Shown: positions 45,004 through 57,911 of the stretch, piece by piece
Position numbering within the stretch: position 1 is the first letter of the stretch
Layout: each line of letters starts with the position of its first letter
NCBI GenBank assembly: GCA_029261715.1
Contig: JAJDAT010000014.1
Location: 372,001 to 436,000, forward strand
DNA length: 64,000 bases
DNA from: Nitrospinia bacterium
GTDB lineage: Bacteria > Nitrospinota > Nitrospinia > Nitrospinales > JAJDAT01
Reading direction: 5' to 3'
Translations under genes and position numbers: made by a program
The notes under the pieces: model-generated
Databases searched by the model: none
What the model was told of the DNA's origin: nothing
What the model saw: the letters and a program-made list of their open reading frames with translations, nothing else

Positions 45004-45153
45004 ATAATTGACTTAATAATAATTAGGCTATCCGAGAGGAGAAACTCGTAGAATAATCGAAGATATTAAAATTGAAATAGATTCTATATTATCATGTTCT
45101 TATGAATTTTCCGAAATGGGATTCATTGGCTCTCAAATCAAACGTAAGACCAG

Positions 45154-45531
45154 CTACCTCCAACCCCATATCGCCCTTCCCAACAAGTAAAATGTCATTA
45201 TAATGCACGGCAACACATAGGGAACAGCCATAAAGGCTTCTTCCGTATATAATCTAAAACAAGAATGTAAAACTCGCACTCCATAAAGAACCGCCATAAT
45301 TAAAGCGAGCTTTCTTCCTCCTTTATAAATAAAATAAGCGCCAGTTCCGTTCAATAATAATAAAAAAACGACTGTCGCAAACGCCAACCATCCCAGGTTA
45401 AATGGCGGTAATAACCAAAAAAATATACAAAAATAAATAATATTTAAGGCAAAAAAACCAATTCCCGCATGTTGAAATTTTTTATTATTTACAGTATCAG
45501 CTACGTCGGTCTTCTCTTCCATCATTTCCAT
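45154..45531 (-). CDS. Small integral membrane protein of unknown function
   Basis: 125 aa with a short acidic N-terminus and four predicted helices: FFALNIIYFCIFFWLLPPF, GWLAFATVVFLLLLNGTGAY, LALIMAVLYGVRVLHSC and VPYVLPCIIMTFYLLGRAIW. The family is not recognised. Alternative starts at the third or fourth codon (MMEEK, MEEK) are equally possible. Confidence 0.7.
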   Translation of the reverse strand: MEMMEEKTDVADTVNNKKFQHAGIGFFALNIIYFCIFFWLLPPFNLGWLAFATVVFLLLLNGTGAYFIYKGGRKLALIMAVLYGVRVLHSCFRLYTEEAFMAVPYVLPCIIMTFYLLGRAIWGWR

Positions 45532-45883
45532 AAAAACAGCAATCTCTTTCTAAGTAATTCTTTTGTAATATTTGGTGATTTTTTTTAAGTAAAAAACCCA
45601 AATTTTTCCTATTCCGTCATATTTATTAATTTTTAAGAAAGTAGCAACAGTTGTTTGTTCAATGGACTGCCAATTGGGACTATCCATCTTTTTGACATTT
45701 TTGACCGAGCACCTACTTTTCTAGCTCTATAACATATTAAATTTATAAGGTTATCAAATAAACCTACCTAATTTTCTCACTATATATAGGGGGTTATAAC
45801 TCCCGAAATCACAAATTATTGCAGGTATTTTTTTTTATTGCCCCAATTCCGCATATTTTTAATTTTTACAAAAGGAAAAACAG
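45532..45883. other. 352-bp spacer before the tail-fibre-like gene
   Basis: AT-rich, no open frame. It contains a 16-bp palindrome (45789-45804, listed separately), two TTGAC hexamers at about 45688 and 45699 without a well-spaced -10, and an AAAGGA ribosome-binding site close to 45884. Confidence 0.4.
45789..45804. promoter_or_regulatory. Palindrome upstream of the tail-fibre-like gene
   Basis: GGGGGTTATAACTCCC is a loopless palindrome with one G-T mismatch, 80 bp before the start codon. Its position suits an operator; no regulator is known. Confidence 0.3.
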
Positions 45884-48190
45884 ATGCTTGACGAAAAAAC
45901 TATCAATAGGAATTATCCGTTACCTCATCCTGACAATATGTTGGAGGAAGATGTTGCTAGAATTAAAGATTCTTTTGAGCAAATTGACTTAGACGTAAAT
46001 GATTTACTAGGAACGACAACCCAATTAATTGAAGACGTTCAATCAGGTTCGTATTGGTACGGCATATCCACTGGAACCAGTTCGTCATATGAGGTTATTT
46101 TAAACCCAGTTCCAACCGTTTTGAACGCAGGGATTTTTATTCGCATTAAAGCCCATGTTCAAAACACAGGTATAGCGACCATAAACGTAAATTCTTTAGG
46201 GGTAAAAAATATAAAAAGAATTGATGGGAGCGACTTAAAACAGGGAGATATTCCTCAAGATGCCCTCGTTACTTTGATTTACGATGGAATAAATTTTCAA
46301 TTGACCAATGCGATAGCCGATCCAGAAACAGAGGAAATTAATGCCAGCAACATCATGAGAGCTTTTGATGAAATCCAAGAAAATCATGGAGGAGCTTTAT
46401 TGATGGAAGCGGGTTGGTCCGACTCCTTTGGCAATCCCAATGAACAAGGAGCGGATGAGGTAAATTCAACCGGACAGATACACGATGCCGTAAATACGTT
46501 TTATAAAGGGACCGATCCAGGAGTCGGACTAAATTCAGATAAAAATTACGACATGGAATCTGAATACTTACAACAGGAATGGACAAATTCAAACCAAGTA
46601 ACTTCGCAAGCGAGCGCTACAAATAGTTCGACTTCTGTAACCTTATCTAGCGGTATTTGGCCCACTAATTGCGCTAAAGGTCGTATTTCATTTGATGGAG
46701 GTTCGACTTTTTATATCATCGGTAGTAGAAATAGCGATACGCAGATTACTTTAGAGAGCAATTATACAGGTTCTACCAGTTCCACTTTGGATTATAAAAT
46801 TAGATTGACAGAGTTTGATAGCGGAGAGGTAGGATTATGTATGGCTGTTGGTAGCGAAACGATTGACCAATCTCAATATTTGAGCATACATGATGACCAG
46901 GCAATGGGAAATAGTTCTGCCAATCATTATCGTGGGCAAACCTTTCAATCTGGGGTGAGCGCCGAGCTTTCTAAAGTTAGACTTCAACTAAAAAGGTTTG
47001 GCAATCCTATTGGGAATGTAATAGTAGAATTACGTACAACAGATGGGAGTGCCCCTACAGCTACAGTTTTAGCAAGCGCAGCCTTAGACGCCTCCGAGGT
47101 TTTATCACCTGGGCAAAGCTCGGTGGGTGGTTGGAAAGATTTTACATTTGATCCAAGACCAACTTTGGTTTCCGGAACGAAATATGCCATCGTTGCTCAT
47201 GGTTCTTATCCTGATGACGCTTCTAATTATGTTACCTGGAGGTATGAAGGATCAGGCTTTGAAAAGTATGCTGATGGCAAAGCATATTATAGTTCTAACG
47301 GTTCTTCATGGACCAATACCTATCAATGGGGCGATCATACATTTGAAACTCAGTATGTCAACCCCACGGGAGTTGCCTCAGAATATGTATCTGTATGCGA
47401 CATTGAATCTCAAAAAGTGGACACATCTTCTTGGGCAAATATTAATAATTCATCCATTACTGAAACTCTGAACTCGCAAAATGTTTATTACTGGTTAGCG
47501 TTCGATCCGGTAGAAAATTTTGGTGATGGAACTGAGATTAAGATTTTTAATCTAACAGGCGCTGTATGGCGAAAAATAGCGCAAAATAACGCTGGAACTT
47601 GGGAATATAATAACGACGCTACAAATACAGCTACGGAAGATTGGGTTGCATCGACAATAGACGATATGTTGCACGCGGTATCCCAAGCGATCTCAACTCA
47701 AACTGCCAACCGCATGACAGGAGCCAGTCTTATGGCTATCACCAATACGCAGTGGGGAGAAACGAACGGTTGGTCAACATCCGTTAATTCCATATTGCGT
47801 GGCGTTACCTTTTATTCCAACGATACGAGTCAAACCCCAAATGCTTCGCAATATCGTTTGAAATACGATTCAGAACGTGGGGCTATGGATCTTCGGAGTA
47901 AAACATACGATCCAGGATTCGTGCCTTCCGAAAGTTATATTTGGTCTCGGATTGAACATTCAGATTCCGACGGACCAGGATCATTCTATATTACCCGAAA
48001 CGGCGGAACAGAATGGACTCTTATTTCTTTGACGCAACAAGGTTTGCCGCTTGCTGGAGATATTCGGGTTTACCGTGGAATTGTTGACGTTAGCGGTCAA
48101 ACTTCTGGACAGGATTTGCGATGCCGCTACCAAACTGAGCAAAATAAAGATCAGTTTATACATTCGTGGGGATTGCAGCTAAAAAGCTAA
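45884..48190 (+). CDS. Phage tail-fibre-like protein, orphan
   Basis: 768-aa protein with no signal peptide. Residues about 1-150 resemble phage tail-fibre/baseplate N-termini (short helical start, then SSSYEVILNPVPTVLNAGIF, NTGIATINVNSLGVKNIKRI, QDALVTLIYDGINFQLTN). A middle stretch (about 320-460) is a lectin-like beta-sandwich (TFQSGVSAELSKVRLQLKR, TVLASAALDASEV, WKDFTFDPRPTLVSGTKYAI). The C-terminus is beta-rich with no Cys. AAAGGA precedes the ATG at 45884. No capsid, terminase or tail genes are nearby, so it is an isolated module, possibly domesticated or an adhesin. Function unknown. Confidence 0.65.
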   Translation: MLDEKTINRNYPLPHPDNMLEEDVARIKDSFEQIDLDVNDLLGTTTQLIEDVQSGSYWYGISTGTSSSYEVILNPVPTVLNAGIFIRIKAHVQNTGIATINVNSLGVKNIKRIDGSDLKQGDIPQDALVTLIYDGINFQLTNAIADPETEEINASNIMRAFDEIQENHGGALLMEAGWSDSFGNPNEQGADEVNSTGQIHDAVNTFYKGTDPGVGLNSDKNYDMESEYLQQEWTNSNQVTSQASATNSSTSVTLSSGIWPTNCAKGRISFDGGSTFYIIGSRNSDTQITLESNYTGSTSSTLDYKIRLTEFDSGEVGLCMAVGSETIDQSQYLSIHDDQAMGNSSANHYRGQTFQSGVSAELSKVRLQLKRFGNPIGNVIVELRTTDGSAPTATVLASAALDASEVLSPGQSSVGGWKDFTFDPRPTLVSGTKYAIVAHGSYPDDASNYVTWRYEGSGFEKYADGKAYYSSNGSSWTNTYQWGDHTFETQYVNPTGVASEYVSVCDIESQKVDTSSWANINNSSITETLNSQNVYYWLAFDPVENFGDGTEIKIFNLTGAVWRKIAQNNAGTWEYNNDATNTATEDWVASTIDDMLHAVSQAISTQTANRMTGASLMAITNTQWGETNGWSTSVNSILRGVTFYSNDTSQTPNASQYRLKYDSERGAMDLRSKTYDPGFVPSESYIWSRIEHSDSDGPGSFYITRNGGTEWTLISLTQQGLPLAGDIRVYRGIVDVSGQTSGQDLRCRYQTEQNKDQFIHSWGLQLKS

Positions 48191-48457
48191 AACAACGCAT
48201 TACCAGGGAATGTTCAATGATGAAGGTATAAAAATTATAACTCGTTTGAGCTATATGTTTTTAAAACTTAGAATTGGCTTTCCTGGTTTCTGCGAACAAA
48301 GCTATCAGCTACGCAAAATAAAAAGTTATATCAGGTTTTATATCTGTCCAAAGTTGCGATATTAGCCTCGGTATGATACGGTTCGTCATTCTCAATTTTT
48401 ATCGCAAGAGTTTACCACTTAACCTGCAACTTTAGAACGTTCGTCTCCTATACGACC

Positions 48458-49666
48458 ATGCTTTCTGCATCCGAACAGCTTGAAATTATCCAACGCGGAA
48501 CCGCTGAAATTATCGAAAAAAAAGAGCTCGGTCAACGCATCGATAATGCCATCAAAAAGAATGTTCCGCTTCGCATTAAGGCTGGATTTGACCCTACAGC
48601 GCCCGATTTGCATTTAGGACATACTGTTCTTTTGCAAAAAATGAAACAATTTCAGGATTTAGGACACCAAGCTGTTTTTCTAATCGGCGATTTCACAGGA
48701 ATGATTGGCGATCCTACAGGAAAGTCTGAAACAAGGAAAAGCTTAACAGAAGATCAAGTCAAGGAAAACGCCGCAACTTACCTAGAACAAGTTTTTAAAA
48801 TCTTAGATCCAGAAAAAACCGAAATTGTTTACAACAGCGAGTGGATGAATAAATTCACCTCTTCGGATATGATCCGGTTAGCGGCTAAATATACGGTCGC
48901 TAGAATGCTAGAACGAGATGACTTTCAAAAACGCCTATCGAAAAATCTTCCAATTTCCATGCATGAGATGTTCTATCCTTTAATTCAAGGATATGATTCA
49001 GTCGCTATTAAATCGGATATTGAATTGGGCGGAACAGATCAAAAGTTTAATCTTCTAGTTGGGAGAGAGTTACAAAGAGATTATAAACAAATTCCTCAAC
49101 TCATTTTGACAATGCCTCTTTTGGAAGGAACCGACGGCGAACAAAAAATGAGCAAAAGTCTGGGGAACGCTATTGGCATTGCTGAGCCTCCTCGCGAAAT
49201 GTTTGGAAAGGTAATGTCTATCTCAGATTCTTTGATGTGGCGATACTTTGAGTTATTAAGCGATAAGCCTTCAAATGAAATAGCGGATCTTAAGCAAAAA
49301 GCAGAAATGGGTGAAATGAACCCAAAGAACGCAAAGGTTTTATTAGCTAAAGAAATTGTTTCACGGTTTCACAATTCAGAATCGGCAGAACAAGCTGCAG
49401 CAGAATTTGATAACGTTTTTAAGAAAAAACAATTGCCGGACGAAATCCCAACTATTCCTTCATGGGGTCCAGACGAAATGTGGGTTTGCAAGCTATTGGT
49501 TGATAATAAACTAACAAAAAGCTCTTCCGAAGCGCGGAGAATGGTTCAACAAGGCGCCGTTAGCGTAGATGGAGAAAAGATCGACGACCCCAATCTACAG
49601 TTAGAAGGAAACAAAGAATATTTAATTAAAGTAGGAAAAAAGAAGTTTCTTAAAATCCAACCTTAG
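48458..49666 (+). CDS. tyrS: Tyrosyl-tRNA synthetase (TyrZ-like, ~400-aa class)
   Basis: Charges tRNA-Tyr with tyrosine. The 402-aa protein has the class I signatures: HLGH in [19 protein letters not shown] (HIGH box), the tyrosine-binding [28 protein letters not shown], and KMSKS in [16 protein letters not shown]-terminal S4 RNA-binding domain (residues about 338-400) is visible in [19 protein letters not shown]. It starts at ATG 48458. It is followed by a small acidic gene and is otherwise a stand-alone housekeeping gene. Confidence 0.97.
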
Positions 49667-51341: not shown

Positions 51342-52730
51342 ATGGTTGATATACGAAAAATTCCCCCTGCTATAAATTGGCACGAAGGTATGTTGCTCGC
51401 TCCACAACACTTTCAACAAACCGATCAAAGGCATGAGTCTCTTACTACATACCATGTTTCCGCAGTATCCCCTTTTCATTGGGGGATAATGGACTTAAAA
51501 ATTGATCGACCACGTTTGGTAGACGGTAACTTGAAAATTATGTCTCTTGAAGCAGTTATGCCAGATGGATTAGCTGTCTCCTTTGGCGAAAGCGATGCAG
51601 ACAAAGTCTCTGTTAGTTACTACCAAAACAAAGAAGAAGAAAAGAAAAAAGAAGTTTTGGAATTAGATTTAGAGCCTTTAAAACCAGAAATGGAAAGAGG
51701 ACCGCTAACAATCCATTTAGCCGTCGCCTCTCAAAAAATGGGAGTTTCCTATTTCAAAGGCGATATTGATCGTCACGAATCGTTTGAAGGAATAGCCATA
51801 ATTGATGAAAACACAGGCGATAATGAACTTTCAATTCCAAGGCTAAAGCCAAAGTTAAAGTTATTAAGTGTAAATGAATCTTTAGTTAATTATGTAAGTT
51901 TTCCAATTGCAGAAATCACTTTTCAAAATCAAAAGTTTGAGTTAACAGACTTTATTTTTCCAGCTCTTTCCGTTCCATTACGCTTTGCTCTGGGCGAAAA
52001 ATGTACGGCTATAGCAAGAAAAATTAGAGAGAAAGCGGAATACTTGTCGGATCAAGTAAACGCGCCTTCCTCAAAAACTGGCATGCCTCTAGTTTTGGAA
52101 ACCAAAACAATGATTAATAATATGGTAACCTCTTTGCCTTATTATGAAGCAGTTCTAAACACTGGTAAGGCTCATCCATACAATGTTTATCTTGCTCTAT
52201 GTACGCTTGCTGGAAGCGTAGCTGGTCTTAGTAAAGGATTAGTGCCTCCTTCTTTTGATCCGTATGATCACGGCAATCTAAAACATACTTTTAACCAAGT
52301 CCTGACTTATATAGACGATTTAGTTTCTGAAGGCGTTCAAGAAAAATATTCAACAATTCCATTTAAGTATCAGGAAGAATTAAACAGCTTTGGTCTAAAT
52401 CTTAAATCTGAATGGGCGAATAAAGAATTATTTTTTAGCGTCAGAGGTTCTGGAGGAACATCCGAAAAAGATCTTTCGGAGTGGGTCGAAAAAAGTTGGA
52501 TCGGCTCGGAATCAAAAATTCCTACAATTAGAGAAAAAAGAGTGCGTGGCGCTAAGCGTGAGTCAATTGAACGAGATAAAGACATTGTACCTGCCAGAGG
52601 CGTCGTACTATTCAAGCTTACTGTAGACCCTGAATTTATAGAACCCGACCAAAATTTGTCTATTTTTCATCCAACTTCTATGGGATCTGCATCAACTCCA
52701 ACCGAAATTTTGTTACACGTAAAAAAATAG
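51342..52730 (+). CDS. tssK: TssK, type VI secretion baseplate subunit
   Basis: Cytoplasmic protein (ImpJ/VasE family) that links the T6SS baseplate to its membrane complex. The 462-aa chain has the family N-terminus INWHEGMLLAPQHFQQTDQR, then SPFHWGIMDLKIDRPRLVDG and SLEAVMPDGLAV, and a C-terminal domain with RGVVLFKLTVDPEFIEPD. The middle is charged and less conserved. Length matches the usual 440-450. GAGGA precedes the ATG at 51342. No tssB, C, E, F, G, H, L, M, hcp or vgrG gene is in the window. It is followed by a vWA/PP2C/kinase cluster, so regulation by phosphorylation is plausible. Confidence 0.87.
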   Translation: MVDIRKIPPAINWHEGMLLAPQHFQQTDQRHESLTTYHVSAVSPFHWGIMDLKIDRPRLVDGNLKIMSLEAVMPDGLAVSFGESDADKVSVSYYQNKEEEKKKEVLELDLEPLKPEMERGPLTIHLAVASQKMGVSYFKGDIDRHESFEGIAIIDENTGDNELSIPRLKPKLKLLSVNESLVNYVSFPIAEITFQNQKFELTDFIFPALSVPLRFALGEKCTAIARKIREKAEYLSDQVNAPSSKTGMPLVLETKTMINNMVTSLPYYEAVLNTGKAHPYNVYLALCTLAGSVAGLSKGLVPPSFDPYDHGNLKHTFNQVLTYIDDLVSEGVQEKYSTIPFKYQEELNSFGLNLKSEWANKELFFSVRGSGGTSEKDLSEWVEKSWIGSESKIPTIREKRVRGAKRESIERDKDIVPARGVVLFKLTVDPEFIEPDQNLSIFHPTSMGSASTPTEILLHVKK

Positions 52731-52845
52731 GTTCTTTAGTTCGTTTAGTCTTCCCAAAATAACTTTTCGCTACAAGATGAGCGCGTCATGCAAACCGACG
52801 TCGTATCAACATTTTTCAAACAAAAACCCCTAAAAGGGATTTAAG

Positions 52846-53547
52846 ATGCGAAAACGCCCCGGGGGAGCCCTAGCCGGTCGTCCTCTACATTTTATATGGA
52901 TCGCCGATAAATCTGGATCCATGGGAATCGACGGAAAGATACAGGCTTTAAACCACGCTATCCACGAAGCAATTCCTCATATGAAAGAGGCTGCCAACGA
53001 AAACCCCAACGCGGAGGTACTCGTTCGAGCTGTGGTATTTTCTGACGGAGCCCAATGGCATATTTCTAAGCCAACCCCCATTTCCGATTTCAAATGGAAA
53101 GACTTAACTGCCGGCGGAATAACGGATATGGGAAAAGCCATGAATCTAGTAGCGGATCAATTAAAAATTCCTCCGATGACAGATCGAGCCCTCCCACCCG
53201 TTTTAGTTTTAATTTCTGATGGTCAACCTACAGACGATTTTAACGCAAGCCTAAAAAACCTTTTATCTTTGCCCTGGGGCAAAAAATCAGTTCGAATCGC
53301 TATTGCTATAGGTGAAGACGCCGATTTAGATACTCTTCAAAAATTTATTGGCAATGTAGAAATTGGGCCATTTCAGGCCAATAACCCCGAAACCCTTAAG
53401 AATTATATTAAATGGACTTCAACGGCTGTCCTTAAAGCCACTTCTTCCCCAATGAGCCAAACTGATTCGTCTGATTCAGGAACTCCTCCAAGTTCATTCA
53501 TTCCAGAACCAACTATTTCAACCGATTCTTCTTCTGATATTTGGTGA
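52846..53547 (+). CDS. TerY-type von Willebrand factor A domain protein
   Basis: 233-aa cytoplasmic vWA protein. The metal-ion-dependent adhesion site is complete: D21-x-S23-x-S25 in IADKSGSMG, Thr93 in AGGITDMG and Asp125 in LISDGQPTD. Compact single-domain vWA proteins of this size are TerY-like and are known from TerY-P triads together with a PP2C phosphatase and a protein kinase, exactly the genes that follow. A Ser/Thr/Pro-rich tail (residues about 205-233) could be a phosphorylation target. AAGGG lies 7 nt before the ATG; the next gene begins 3 nt after its stop. Confidence 0.9.
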   Translation: MRKRPGGALAGRPLHFIWIADKSGSMGIDGKIQALNHAIHEAIPHMKEAANENPNAEVLVRAVVFSDGAQWHISKPTPISDFKWKDLTAGGITDMGKAMNLVADQLKIPPMTDRALPPVLVLISDGQPTDDFNASLKNLLSLPWGKKSVRIAIAIGEDADLDTLQKFIGNVEIGPFQANNPETLKNYIKWTSTAVLKATSSPMSQTDSSDSGTPPSSFIPEPTISTDSSSDIW

Positions 53548-53550
53548 TTT

Positions 53551-54429
53551 ATGCCTTCTGTTACCAAAAAAAATGACGGTACTTGGCATATTATAGGCGA
53601 AAGCGTTCGAGGAGTTACACACGATCGGAAAGGATTACCAAATCAAGACGCGATTCGATATGTAGTAGAAAAAGGAAATGAGCTTCCGTTGGCCGTTGCC
53701 GTTTCTGACGGACATGGCAATTCTAGAAACTTTAGAAGCGAATTTGGCGCTCAGTTAGCGGCAAATATAACAAGCGATATTTTAATTCGCTTTTTGTCGC
53801 AGCCTTGTAATAAAAAAAATTCAGATCAAACGCTAAATAACATACAAAAAATTTTGATCCCCGATATCATCGAGACTTGGAAAAAAGAAGTCTTAGACCA
53901 TTTTGAAAAAAATCCAATTTTAGAAACCGAACGAGAAAGATTAATCAGTAAGAACGGATTCTCTCCGGACATAAATAACAATTTATCCGATCCCATTTTA
54001 TTTTACGGAACTACTCTTTTAGCCGCAGGGGTTTCTGACTCATTAATAATATTACTCCAGTTGGGAGATGGCGATATTCTCACTGTAGATCCACTTGGCA
54101 AAGTCTCTCAACCTATGCCCCATGATGACAATCTATTTGCGGACGAAACTACTTCATTATGTTTACCAAACGCAGAACAATATATGCGGTACGTTGTTTT
54201 AGAACCTCAAACAAACCAAACAAAACTTTTGCTAATTTCAACCGATGGTTATTCAAAGTCTTTTATTAAAGATTCGGACTTTCTTGAAGTGGGTCCAGAT
54301 TTTTTAGAACTTCTCGAAAATGAAGGCATAGCTACCGTTGAAAATAATTTGAAAAAGTGGTTAGACGAAACTTCTCGATTAGGCAGCGGGGACGATATAA
54401 CTTTGGGAATTATTTATCATGAACGATAA
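53551..54429 (+). CDS. PP2C-type protein phosphatase (first triad)
   Basis: 292-aa Mn/Mg-dependent Ser/Thr phosphatase. Metal-binding motifs: GLPNQDAIRY (Asp33), AVSDGHGNSR (Asp53-Gly-His-Gly), LQLGDGDILTV, LISTDGYSKS and GSGDDITLGII (final Asp pair). No membrane segment. It is the second element of a TerY-P triad and starts 3 nt after the vWA gene; its end overlaps the next gene by 11 nt, indicating coupled translation. It presumably reverses phosphorylation made by the kinase encoded at 56.6 kb. Confidence 0.92.
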   Translation: MPSVTKKNDGTWHIIGESVRGVTHDRKGLPNQDAIRYVVEKGNELPLAVAVSDGHGNSRNFRSEFGAQLAANITSDILIRFLSQPCNKKNSDQTLNNIQKILIPDIIETWKKEVLDHFEKNPILETERERLISKNGFSPDINNNLSDPILFYGTTLLAAGVSDSLIILLQLGDGDILTVDPLGKVSQPMPHDDNLFADETTSLCLPNAEQYMRYVVLEPQTNQTKLLLISTDGYSKSFIKDSDFLEVGPDFLELLENEGIATVENNLKKWLDETSRLGSGDDITLGIIYHER

Positions 54430-56578
54430 AATGAGCGAGGTTCCTCGAGAAGAATTAGCAAAAATCCTGAAAAACTACGGCAAAGATCTTTGTCAAGACC
54501 CTCGAAGATGTGAAGCATTTTTGAAAGACCTATGCGGTCCTCACAAAAGAGAAATATTTATATTAGTAAGCGGTATTCGAGAAAGAATTCCTGAAGCTCT
54601 TCAGAAAAACTCCGAAAACTCAGTTAGTTTTAATCTTTTATTAGGCAATTTAACTAAACGATTGCGAGATAACTTAGGGCTTTCGCCTGAAGCGGCTTTA
54701 TGGTGTGTAGAAACATGGACATACGCATTAGAGCTAGCGCCAAAATCTCCTACAATCAAACCTACCCCAAAAAATAATATATCAAAGGAACCTAGTTCTA
54801 ATTCTACTGAACATAGACCCATTCCAACGTTTGCGGTTTCTTTATCTGAAAAGGGAAGTTTTAATTCTATTTCAGATGCTCTAGAGCATGCGCCTCCACA
54901 TTCTCGGATAATAATATACCCAGGTCGATATGAAGAAGCTATAACTATCAATAAACCCATTGAGATAATCGGTCAAGGCTCTCCTAGAGAAATTGTTATC
55001 GTCTCTAAAGATGGTCCTTGCATCCGTATGGAAACCCAAACCGCCTTAGTATCAGGTTTAACGCTTCGAGGAATCTCCCCAAAATCGTATACCGTCGAAA
55101 TATCTAAGGGAGAATTGAAGTTAAAAGATTGCGATATTTCTTCAGAATTTTTCTCTTGTATAGGAATTTTCGGGCCATCGGCTCGACCCATCATTTTTGG
55201 TTGCCGAATTAATAAAGCCAAAGAATATGGATTGCATGTCGCCCTTCAAGCTCAAGGAATGATTGAAGAGTGCGAAATTTATGCAAATAAGTTGTCAGGA
55301 ATTAAAATTCAACAGGATGCTAATCCAATATTTAGAAAATGTCGAATCCGAGGTGGAAAAGAAAATGGACTAACCGTTAACGACAGCGGAAGAGGAATAC
55401 TAGAAAATTGCGACTTTTCAGGGAATGGAGGCAACGCAATTGAGACTGAAACAAAAGGAGAACCAACCTTAAAAAATTGTAAAATTCATGATGGGAAAAA
55501 AGGTATCCAAGTCTTGGATTCAGGCAAAGGTAATTTTTATGGTTGCGATATTTTCAATAATACTCGACCTGGAATCGAGATAATAAAAAATGGGAACCCT
55601 GTTTTTGAGAAATGTCAATTTCACCACGGACGCGATTTAGGAATTTCCATATCCAAAAACGGGAAAGGAAAATTCAAAGATTGTGAAGTATTCGCAAATA
55701 TTAAAGGAGGTCTTTCAATATCGGACTTAGGAGACCCAGAGTTTGAAAACTGTCTTATTCATGACAACCGAGAGAATGGAGCCTATTTTTTTAGCAAAGG
55801 CAAAGGCAAATTTCAAAGTTGTAGCTTTAGCGGAAACTCTTTGGCCTCTGTTTTTATTCAATCTCTTGGAAATCCTATTTTTAGCCAATGTCGATTTAAT
55901 TCCGGACGCGGTAGCTTAATAATTCATGACCGAGGAAAGGGCATTTTTGAGAAATGCGAAATATTTCAAAATGAATTTGCTGGCGTTGAAATAAGAGAAA
56001 AGGGAAACCCAAGCTTGGAAGATTGCCGAATATACGATGGGCAAAGCGCTGGAGTCTTTATATACCGTAATGGATCTGGAACGTTTAAAAACTGTGAAAT
56101 TTTTGGAAATCAATCTGCGGGAGTAGCAATTAAGCAACAAGCCAATCCAAAAATTATTGGTTGCAAAGTTTATGGAAATCGAGAAAACGGAATCGAAATC
56201 TTTGACCAAGGAAAAGGGATATTTCAAAATTGCGATATTTATTCAAATAAAGGTTCCGGAATCAAAATTGCCCACCAAGGCGACCCTTCACTTAAAAATT
56301 GTAAAATAAGAGAAAGTGAATTCTCTGGCTTACTCGCTATCGACTTCGGCGTCGGATACTTAGAATCATGCCAAATAATATCTAACGGCAATTATGGCGT
56401 AGACATCCTGAAGGGCGGAAACCCAATTATCAGAAACTGTAAAATTAATCGAAATAAATCGAAAGGCGCTCGAATTGCGAACAAGGGAGTTGGCGATTTT
56501 GATAATTGCGACTTAACTGAAAATCGTGAAGGAGCATGGGCTATTGACCCAGAATGCCAGGTAAAAATGGCAGGTTAA
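54419..56578 (+). CDS. Right-handed beta-helix protein with a 21-cysteine ladder
   Basis: 719-aa cytoplasmic protein (no signal). Residues about 1-110 are an all-helical domain (NYGKDLCQDPRRCEAFLKDL, LSPEAALWCVETWTYALE) of the type found at N-termini of bacterial signalling proteins. After a linker with TFAVSLSEKGSFNSISDAL come about 23 parallel beta-helix coils. The coils alternate G-x-G-x-F-x2-C-[DE]-I and G-[ND]-P-x-F-x2-C-x-I, a 46-residue double unit, with 21 cysteines at equivalent turns (for example KGNFYGCDIF, NPVFEKCQFH). It resembles NosD/pectate-lyase-like folds but shows no obvious catalytic residues. Start is ATG 54419 or 54431. Confidence 0.85.
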   Translation: MNDKMSEVPREELAKILKNYGKDLCQDPRRCEAFLKDLCGPHKREIFILVSGIRERIPEALQKNSENSVSFNLLLGNLTKRLRDNLGLSPEAALWCVETWTYALELAPKSPTIKPTPKNNISKEPSSNSTEHRPIPTFAVSLSEKGSFNSISDALEHAPPHSRIIIYPGRYEEAITINKPIEIIGQGSPREIVIVSKDGPCIRMETQTALVSGLTLRGISPKSYTVEISKGELKLKDCDISSEFFSCIGIFGPSARPIIFGCRINKAKEYGLHVALQAQGMIEECEIYANKLSGIKIQQDANPIFRKCRIRGGKENGLTVNDSGRGILENCDFSGNGGNAIETETKGEPTLKNCKIHDGKKGIQVLDSGKGNFYGCDIFNNTRPGIEIIKNGNPVFEKCQFHHGRDLGISISKNGKGKFKDCEVFANIKGGLSISDLGDPEFENCLIHDNRENGAYFFSKGKGKFQSCSFSGNSLASVFIQSLGNPIFSQCRFNSGRGSLIIHDRGKGIFEKCEIFQNEFAGVEIREKGNPSLEDCRIYDGQSAGVFIYRNGSGTFKNCEIFGNQSAGVAIKQQANPKIIGCKVYGNRENGIEIFDQGKGIFQNCDIYSNKGSGIKIAHQGDPSLKNCKIRESEFSGLLAIDFGVGYLESCQIISNGNYGVDILKGGNPIIRNCKINRNKSKGARIANKGVGDFDNCDLTENREGAWAIDPECQVKMAG

Positions 56579-56591
56579 TCATTTAAAAGAT

Positions 56592-57911
56592 ATGAATCAA
56601 TTACTAAAAACTAATTGCAAACTTTCATTGACCAATCTACAAACTCATTGCGAGGTAGACTACATCATTGGAAGCGGCGCTCAGGGAGAAGTTTATAAAG
56701 TGGATTTAGATGGAAAATCCCTTGCTCTAAAATGGTATTTCTCAAGAGCCGCGACAGAAAAACAACGTAATATTTTAAAAACACTCATCGATAAAGGACC
56801 GCCTGCTTCAAGCTTCCTTTGGCCTATACTTTTTGCCGAATCTCCAGCCATTCCTGGATTCGGTTATTTTATGCCACTGCGGGATACAAGATTTAAAGGA
56901 CTGACAAATTTAATGAAGAGACGAATCGATCCAACGTTTCAAACATTATCGCTAACAGGCGCAAATTTAGCTCATAACTTCCTACAACTTCATTCCAAAG
57001 GATTGTGCTACAGAGATATATCTTTTGGAAATATTTTTCTAGATCCTAATACCGCTGAAATTCAAATTTGCGACAACGACAATGTGACCGAAGACGATCA
57101 AAGTCAGGGTGGGATATTAGGTACCCCTAGATTTATGGCTCCAGAATTAGTACGAAGAGAGGCTAGCCCAAGTTCTCAAACCGATTTATTTTCCCTTTCA
57201 GTTCTACTCTTCTACCTGCTTTTGCTTCATCACCCTCTTGAAGGCAAGAAAGAACTCTCTATTAAATGTTTAGACCTCCCTGCTATGAACCGATTGTATG
57301 GCAAAGAACCATTATTTATCTTTGATCCTATCGATTCATCGAACGAACCTGTTTCTGGCCATCATGATAACGCTTTAATATTTTGGCCTATCTATCCGAA
57401 GTTTTTACGTGACTTGTTTATACAAGCGTTTGGGGAAGGCCTTGTCGATCCTACGTCGAGAGTAAGAGAAAGTGAATGGAGAAACGCTTTAACCCTTCTT
57501 AGCGATTCTATTTTTTATTGTTCTAATTGTGAATCAGAAAATTTTTACGATTCTGATTTTATAAAAGCAAATCAAGGGTCAGCAGGAATATGCTGGTCTT
57601 GCCAAAACACGCTTTCTTTGCCGCCAAGAATAAAAATAGAAAATAAAATCATCATGCTTAATAAAGATTCAAAACTATTTCCATATCACATTGACGATTC
57701 AAGACCTTGCGATTTTTCAGCTCCAATCGGAGAAAGACTCTCTAAAAACTCAGACCTAGAACAGCCTACTATAAAAAATATCTCTAGAGAAAAATGGGTT
57801 TCTTCTCTACCTGGAGAAACTCCACACGATATTCTTCCTGGAGAAAAACTTAACTTAATTACCGGGACACAGGTTTATTTCGGAAAGAAAAAAGGTATTA
57901 TCCGCATTTAA
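56592..57911 (+). CDS. Protein kinase with C-terminal zinc ribbon (first triad)
   Basis: 439-aa Ser/Thr-type kinase. Glycine loop GSGAQGEVYKV (27-36), Lys47 in LALKWYF, catalytic loop YRDISFGN (Asp142, Asn147; YRD for HRD), metal-binding CDNDNV (Asp161 or Asp163 for DFG), and GTPRFMAPEL (APE). Residues about 305-340 carry a zinc ribbon, C310-x2-C313 ... C334-x2-C337, followed by a beta-rich C-terminal domain of unclear type. Kinases of this layout belong to TerY-P triads. It is 13 bp after the beta-helix gene. Nearly all catalytic residues are present, so it should be active. Confidence 0.9.
   Translation: MNQLLKTNCKLSLTNLQTHCEVDYIIGSGAQGEVYKVDLDGKSLALKWYFSRAATEKQRNILKTLIDKGPPASSFLWPILFAESPAIPGFGYFMPLRDTRFKGLTNLMKRRIDPTFQTLSLTGANLAHNFLQLHSKGLCYRDISFGNIFLDPNTAEIQICDNDNVTEDDQSQGGILGTPRFMAPELVRREASPSSQTDLFSLSVLLFYLLLLHHPLEGKKELSIKCLDLPAMNRLYGKEPLFIFDPIDSSNEPVSGHHDNALIFWPIYPKFLRDLFIQAFGEGLVDPTSRVRESEWRNALTLLSDSIFYCSNCESENFYDSDFIKANQGSAGICWSCQNTLSLPPRIKIENKIIMLNKDSKLFPYHIDDSRPCDFSAPIGERLSKNSDLEQPTIKNISREKWVSSLPGETPHDILPGEKLNLITGTQVYFGKKKGIIRI

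Follow-up and report, generated by a model that had tools for sequence, protein, structure and literature searches.

A solitary tail-fibre gene beside tyrS

The window, by which we mean the whole 64,000-nt stretch analysed (positions 372,001-436,000 of contig JAJDAT010000014.1, in a genome of 5.33 Mb and 52 contigs), holds an intact gene for a phage tail fibre between a 125-aa gene and tyrS. Feature positions are counted within the window. C-numbers denote contigs of the same genome, with copies of the fibre named as contig_position; G-numbers denote genomes, and L-numbers denote locus stretches, each with its own coordinates. The features of the locus are as follows.

45154..45531, minus strand: left neighbour, a 125-aa gene, the divergent partner of tyrS in relatives and a marker of the insertion site
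45845..45883, plus strand: shared leader with a GGA ribosome-binding-like motif (by eye), common to C49, C40_58289 and C2
45884..48190, plus strand: orphan tail-fibre (receptor-binding protein) gene, 768 aa, intact, ATG start, no internal stop
45884..46027, plus strand: N-terminal anchor, residues 1-48, at 56-81% identity to the anchors of twelve further copies
46049..46324, plus strand: beta domain, residues 56-147, common to Pbunavirus tail fibres and PDB 9b45
46331..46849, plus strand: left scaffold, residues 150-322
46850..47350, plus strand: main slot, residues 323-489, an exchangeable module, of the phrog_5986 class in the window copy
47351..48187, plus strand: right scaffold and C-terminal domain, residues 490-768, model pLDDT 88.7
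48458..49666, plus strand: right neighbour tyrS, a marker of the insertion site

Pfam gives no match anywhere in the 768-aa protein. In PHROGs, families of unknown function match near the N-terminus, namely phrog_14493 (residues 3-48, 1.3e-10), phrog_20381 (N-terminal part, 3.5e-10) and phrog_28171 (residues 58-119, 1.4e-9), and another such family, phrog_5986, matches the slot (residues 351-488, 6.7e-6). A tblastn search of 50,697 phage records matched 302; among the 40 of these that were listed, Pseudomonas phages dominate, Pbunavirus included (residues 49-186, 27-28% identity, in features named tail fiber, tail protein or hypothetical), Rhizobium phages RR1-A and RR1-B match within residues 8-146 at 31-36% identity, and residues 605-755 match a gene of Rhizobium phages named 'concanavalin A-like lectin'. 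The family profile, moreover, matches tail fibre gp47 of phage Pa193 (PDB 9b45) over positions 56-188, with an E-value of 8.3e-9. By its likeness to annotated and solved fibres, the N-terminal and beta-domain part is that of a Caudoviricetes tail fibre, so that all three kinds of search bear out the earlier note, which had recognised tail-fibre modules at the N-terminus. The lectin-like middle that it also proposed is a reasonable description, in that some sister copies carry Laminin_G_3 or F5/8 type C there, but the window copy has no Pfam match in that position.

The fibre gene is not accompanied by recognisable phage genes. A PHROGs scan (E<=1e-10) of 47 of the 54 other window ORFs of at least 80 aa yielded no head, tail, packaging or integration name among 25 of 30 families listed, 19 of those 25 carrying no description, in agreement with the initial impression of a window free of phage genes; no prophage was recognised at the site among these ORFs. 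Nor does any convincing att-like pair of direct repeats bracket the gene within 45100-48900, a search that very short target repeats would escape.

What the relatives show is an undisturbed version of the same site. tyrS was detected in 56 of 61 genomes; it and the 125-aa gene are divergent neighbours 92-321 bp apart (median 122) in 27 of the 29 relatives' loci, the remaining two stopping at a contig edge, and a fibre match is found in none of the 29. In the window, where tyrS follows the fibre gene as had been reported, the gap is 2926 bp and contains the fibre gene. With the pair adjacent in 27 of 29 loci and parted here by the fibre gene, this gene was inserted on its own, at a site that relatives conserve. 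None of the relatives examined belongs to the source organism's own family; G015, a relative of the same order, has an empty tyrS site (L046) although fibre genes are present elsewhere in its genome.

Further downstream, tssK (PF05936, 7e-41) was located at 51342-52730, 3.15 kb from the fibre gene and thus close to the 3.2 kb first given. The intervening genes are tyrS, a 106-aa gene, an opposite-strand gene (msrA-like by eye) and a 171-aa gene. The stretch 51342-57911 is a T6SS-linked region with TssK, VWA, PP2C, beta-helix and protein-kinase genes.

The fibre family in this genome and elsewhere

The window gene is one member of a large set. A search of the genome itself gave 72 matches, from which 26 pieces were analysed: 20 complete ORFs, the window's included, and 6 truncated by contig ends. 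One of the 20, C51_148512, is 301 aa long and has a large internal deletion; left out of the set were shorter fragments on C12, C13, C15, C26, C40, C49 and C51 and a weak match on C14. These counts are per genome, not per prophage, and contig breaks fall within fibre genes, with exact overlaps of 141 bp. C46 and C6_24372, for example, overlap by an identical 141 bp and may be one gene, C51_155862 and C40_133877 may also be one, and copies on C2 and C6 have an exact 141-bp stretch in common at contig ends while otherwise differing.

Several copies sit among phage genes. Those at C51:148-156 kb lie behind portal and major head protein genes, the copy on C37 is adjoined by terminase and portal genes, a tape-measure-like gene precedes the copies at C51:83-97 kb, and a C6 copy adjoins a gene of the phrog_5107 family. 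In the podovirus-like prophage on C51 the large terminase gene occupies two different frames of the contig; this prophage may be dead, unless the split is an assembly error. Both C51 and C40 terminate in fibre arrays and may represent two ends of one prophage; the C40 side showed no head gene. Judged by eye, other copies stand among host-like genes: the window copy, C40:55.8-62.1 (two fibres and an endolysin-like peptidase), C49, C38, and C2 as far as its contig reaches. C40:93.6 kb and C51:122.6-126.3 kb resemble decayed remnants. The solitary copies do not form one supported clade, since in the trees the window copy groups with C40 copies at nodes that lack starred support. A role as target of a diversity-generating retroelement (DGR) was likewise set aside, the sole RVT_1 match lying on C20, where the fibre family has no match. 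Around the C40 orphan pair, a comparison with 29 relatives' loci matched the aminotransferase gene itself and nothing else.

The family includes several variants that deserve mention in their own right. In three members (L025:7615-9702, L210:6681-8975 and L210:9460-11292) a hydrophobic, signal-peptide-like N-terminus replaces the tail anchor, which suggests that in phage-like regions the scaffold also comes in a secreted form. A 1308-aa copy at L032:7058-10984 has seven tandem beta domains and no anchor match. Two membrane proteins, 44% identical to each other and weakly matching PMT_2 (below cut-off), are encoded at L029:1078-3291 and L039:7780-9990, each adjoining a fibre gene or fibre remnant; they are reminiscent of the surface-glycan-modifying genes of converting phages. 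By eye, a short response-regulator-like gene lies 3' of the fibre in a remnant (L022:8661-10121), a prophage (L210:12169-13601) and a viral contig (L202:12783-13169), with a repressor-like gene adjoining it in the remnant and the prophage. The C51 prophage region L085:1150-13844 also appears, by eye, to hold duplicated tail genes, a pair for proteins of ~1020 aa and a pair for proteins of ~578 aa that begin similarly.

Outside this genome, the podovirus-like viral contig IMGVR_UViG_3300003894_000036 carries a relative that spans residues 64-767 (59% in the best segment). That gene sits downstream of matches to virion structural families (phrog_6121, 1.2e-53), the contig has the phrog_5107 family as well, and a 75-aa gene that follows the fibre has relatives adjoining the C40 array end (43%) and at C40:92.7 kb (37%). 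Viral relatives are retrieved in scans with alignments A2 and A4, whereas alignment A1, or the window protein alone, found none; in IMG/VR, A4 identified 147 relatives among 239 candidates, most of the 80 retained matching only within about residues 430-690. Among cellular genomes, the family was found at 1e-5 in 5 of 100 searched, this one included; G015 is the sole strong relative (40%), and the remaining three have weak fragments. In genome_contigs, A4 picked out three loci, of which one is G015 and the others are weak (29% and 24%), and A1 none. The G015 fibre genes sit behind a tail protein gene, and homologues adjoin virion genes in the viral contig and in the C51 and C37 regions as well. 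The earlier note would have accepted a plain remnant had homologues been confined to prophages; they are found both with phage genes and alone.

Scaffold, slot and leader

Copies of the fibre keep a common scaffold but can swap the main slot, probably the sugar-binding part. The window's anchor type is present in 13 of the 26 pieces and is 71-81% identical to that of the array copies C40_126851, C40_130664, C51_155862 and C51_152466. The slot may be filled by a phrog_5986-like module, Laminin_G_3, F5/8 type C or a module of ~380-400 aa that Pfam does not recognise; the window has the phrog_5986-like kind, with related modules in C40_55830, C49, C6_9565 and G015. Sugar binding is suggested by the families to which modules in sister copies belong; the module of the window copy itself carries no such assignment.

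The exchange itself is clearest in copies whose slots differ on near-identical scaffolds. Over the last 182 residues of the right scaffold, C51_95223 is 89% identical to C51_92159 and 87% to C51_122638, and the latter two are 85% identical to each other, yet their three slots have no mutual similarity better than E 1.7. The window copy, over the same 182 residues, is 75% identical to C40_123262 (slots E 2.6) and 73% to C40_58289 (slots E 0.95). Not every close pair has made such an exchange: C51_88269 and C51_92159 (85% scaffold) retain the slot at 54%, C51_149511 and C51_152466 (84%) retain it at 66%, and C40_123262 and C40_58289 (83%) have diverged modules of one class (28.5%, E 1.5e-12). 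C51_92159 and C6_3315 are 72.5% identical over the slot's first part and 58.8% in the scaffold, and some copies have further insertions inside their scaffolds.

Structure prediction gave a beta-rich fold for the C-terminal 279 residues (monomer model, pLDDT 88.7). The full-length monomer model is poor (pLDDT 56.4), and its fold matches therefore carry little weight. Foldseek found no match to the C-terminal model at E<=0.001; the top match in VIA-align, to a baseplate chain of phi812 (Z 8.1, rmsd 2.7, 99 aligned), was not taken as a likeness, its score being of a level common for unrelated folds.

There has been purifying selection in the history of the C-terminal part. Over ~206 C-terminal codons the NG86 dN/dS of the window copy is 0.057 against C40_123262 and 0.053 against C40_58289; because dS to these nearest kin is near saturation (~3), the values are rough and mostly reflect history before the insertion. 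Against four other copies dS is saturated and gives no ratio, and five copy pairs that do not involve the window copy have values of 0.06-0.17. In the C-terminal tree the window's end branch (0.20) is about twice those of three near kin (0.09-0.11), equal to that of C40_126851 (0.20) and above that of C40_55830 (0.15); selection on the window copy may have relaxed.

The leader offers a further link among copies. We compared the 60 nt upstream of same-anchor copies and counted how many of 500 shuffles reached the observed score; the sequences are AT-rich and the counts are raw, uncorrected for many tests. For the window these were 0 with C49, 1 with C40_58289 and 5 with C2, as against 109-456 with nine other same-anchor copies. 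Among the partners, C49-C2 gave 0 and C40_58289-C49 gave 8, while C40_58289-C2 (29) was no better than C49-C40_123262 (28) or C40_58289-C46 (37). The copies sharing the leader (window, C49, C40_58289 and C2) stand alone or lead a pair. As a genome-wide regulon the motif was rejected, with 54 matches against 48 for a reversed control, and because it is not enriched in the genome the leader is best read as having travelled with these genes. No consensus promoter was found in the upstream gap.

A proposed spare fibre and its alternatives

Overall, this is a real, intact, displaced phage tail-fibre gene of an unusually large modular family, and it looks more like a phage component that is spare or has escaped than like part of the secretion system close by. 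The reading that we favour, at a probability of roughly 0.45, is a displaced phage receptor-binding fibre, probably a spare for the resident podovirus-like prophages. The source would be the fibre repertoire of this genome's podovirus-like phages, from which the gene would have arrived in the tyrS intergenic region alone, carrying its own leader. If expressed, its N-terminal anchor would plug into a phage tail, and would be followed by the beta domain, a conserved shaft-like scaffold, the exchangeable and probably sugar-binding module and the conserved C-terminal domain. Such a protein might be supplied in trans by the host to resident virions that have fibres with this anchor, or the gene might act as a donor of binding modules via recombination with other copies. 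The case for a displaced spare is built from the tail-fibre domains, the viral relative, the shared anchors, the single-gene insertion, the slot exchange, the exact 141-bp stretch common to otherwise differing C2 and C6 copies, the low dN/dS and the shared leader. Against it stand the close pairs that keep their slot module, the missing consensus promoter, the long window branch, the stray fragments with stops that are common in the genome, and the possible death of the resident prophage.

Nearly as likely is that the gene is inert, left by a decayed prophage or by stray recombination and intact only through recency. Such an origin would suit the decayed family fragments, several with stops, on C13, C15, C26, C40 and C49, as well as an upstream gap without a consensus promoter and a window in which no other phage gene is recognised. 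It sits less easily with 768 intact codons, a low dN/dS, a leader shared at four of five solitary sites, and complete copies that, judged by eye, have no recognised head or tail gene near them at the window, C40:55.8-62.1, C49 and C38 sites (the fifth, C2, is cut by a contig end). A lectin used by the host, whether as an adhesin or as a decoy or superinfection blocker aimed at surface glycans, is quite improbable. C51_83614, G015_a and G015_b do have a hydrophobic signal-like N-terminus in place of the anchor, in phage-like contexts, and GDSL-like, MBOAT or PMT-like membrane genes lie near some copies or fragments (several of these matches being below curated cut-offs); the window copy, however, still has its phage anchor, and its N-terminus lacks a hydrophobic stretch (best 13-residue mean -0.12), so that it is not expected to be exported by Sec.

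The earlier note had pictured a domesticated receptor-binding protein, perhaps serving a contractile injection or secretion system. A phage fibre gene outside a prophage is indeed what is found, but the comparisons do not support a link to such a system, and we regard a fibre domesticated by the T6SS, or by a contractile tail cluster on the same contig, as very improbable. The proximity of tssK is offset by the opposite-strand gene that separates it from the fibre gene, so that the two do not share an operon; a second TssK of this genome is on C25, a contig without a fibre match; and G015 (79% complete), the only relative with clear fibre copies, has no TssK. TssK occurs in 8 of 61 genomes, this one included. 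Weak family fragments are present in three of the seven TssK-bearing relatives (G002, G021 and G052, at loci L082, L081 and L080), against any match in one of 53 others (G015), an excess that could track genome size or prophage load. These fragments are distant from TssK, on other contigs or 1.49 Mb away, those of G002 and G021 (but not G052) lying by eye in tail-module-like regions, and fibre matches are absent from all nine TssK loci examined (2.6-4.2 kb each). A contractile tail cluster with a sheath lies at C14:187-203 kb, on the window's own contig; a single weak match, to residues 1-62, falls within it (E 0.002, one stop), and its 1063-aa protein weakly resembles the window slot (24%, E 0.002, in a single comparison). 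Assigned by PHROGs for the sheath and mostly by eye for the other genes (L038:399-15869), and with no capsid gene recognised by eye upstream (stretch L083), this cluster is possibly a tailocin or a contractile injection system. Some extracellular contractile injection system (eCIS) operons hold several or duplicated fibres (PMC12923769).

A broader version of the spare-fibre reading, which we think rather unlikely, is that the solitary copies are maintained and dispersed as self-standing cassettes, each with a leader, an anchor, a fixed scaffold and a swappable lectin slot. From them the bacterium or its resident phages would then obtain new specificities for tails, either through supply in trans or by swapping modules, and the copies would amount to a chromosomal receptor-binding repertoire outside prophages.

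Phages switch hosts by altering their fibres, and the present genome has more than 20 homologous ones, with a bounded exchangeable module and with some copies that belong to no recognised phage. Should these separate copies be in use, chromosomal genes outside the prophage would help to determine host range, and the slot would provide natural swap points; if they are inert, the set still records how fibre modules move. Among the papers searched, none came up on Nitrospinota phage tail fibres or on orphan or solitary fibre genes; the nearest comparisons are with fibres in phages. The 845-aa fibre of IMGVR_UViG_3300003894_000036 shares the beta domain and both left and right scaffolds (residues 64-767) but has another N-terminal anchor and Laminin_G_3 in its slot, and it is the single fibre gene on the stretch read. 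Pbunavirus tail fibres (Pa193 gp47, PDB 9b45; PA8P1 and others) share residues about 49-188, and the fibre gene of Rhizobium phages RR1-A and RR1-B, close behind a baseplate gene, shares the N-terminal region; in both the rest is unmatched. Unrelated Alteromonas phages share host-recognition modules, and tail-fibre modules cross phage families (PMC10579305); these are whole modules with a chaperone, and the abstract mentions no solitary chromosomal copies. Klebsiella phages such as PhiK64-1 carry many receptor-binding proteins in which conserved N-terminal units are re-used and specificity domains swapped, the genes all being in one phage (PMC6872550), whereas here copies also stand alone in the chromosome and what is exchanged is an internal slot, flanked on both sides by conserved scaffold.
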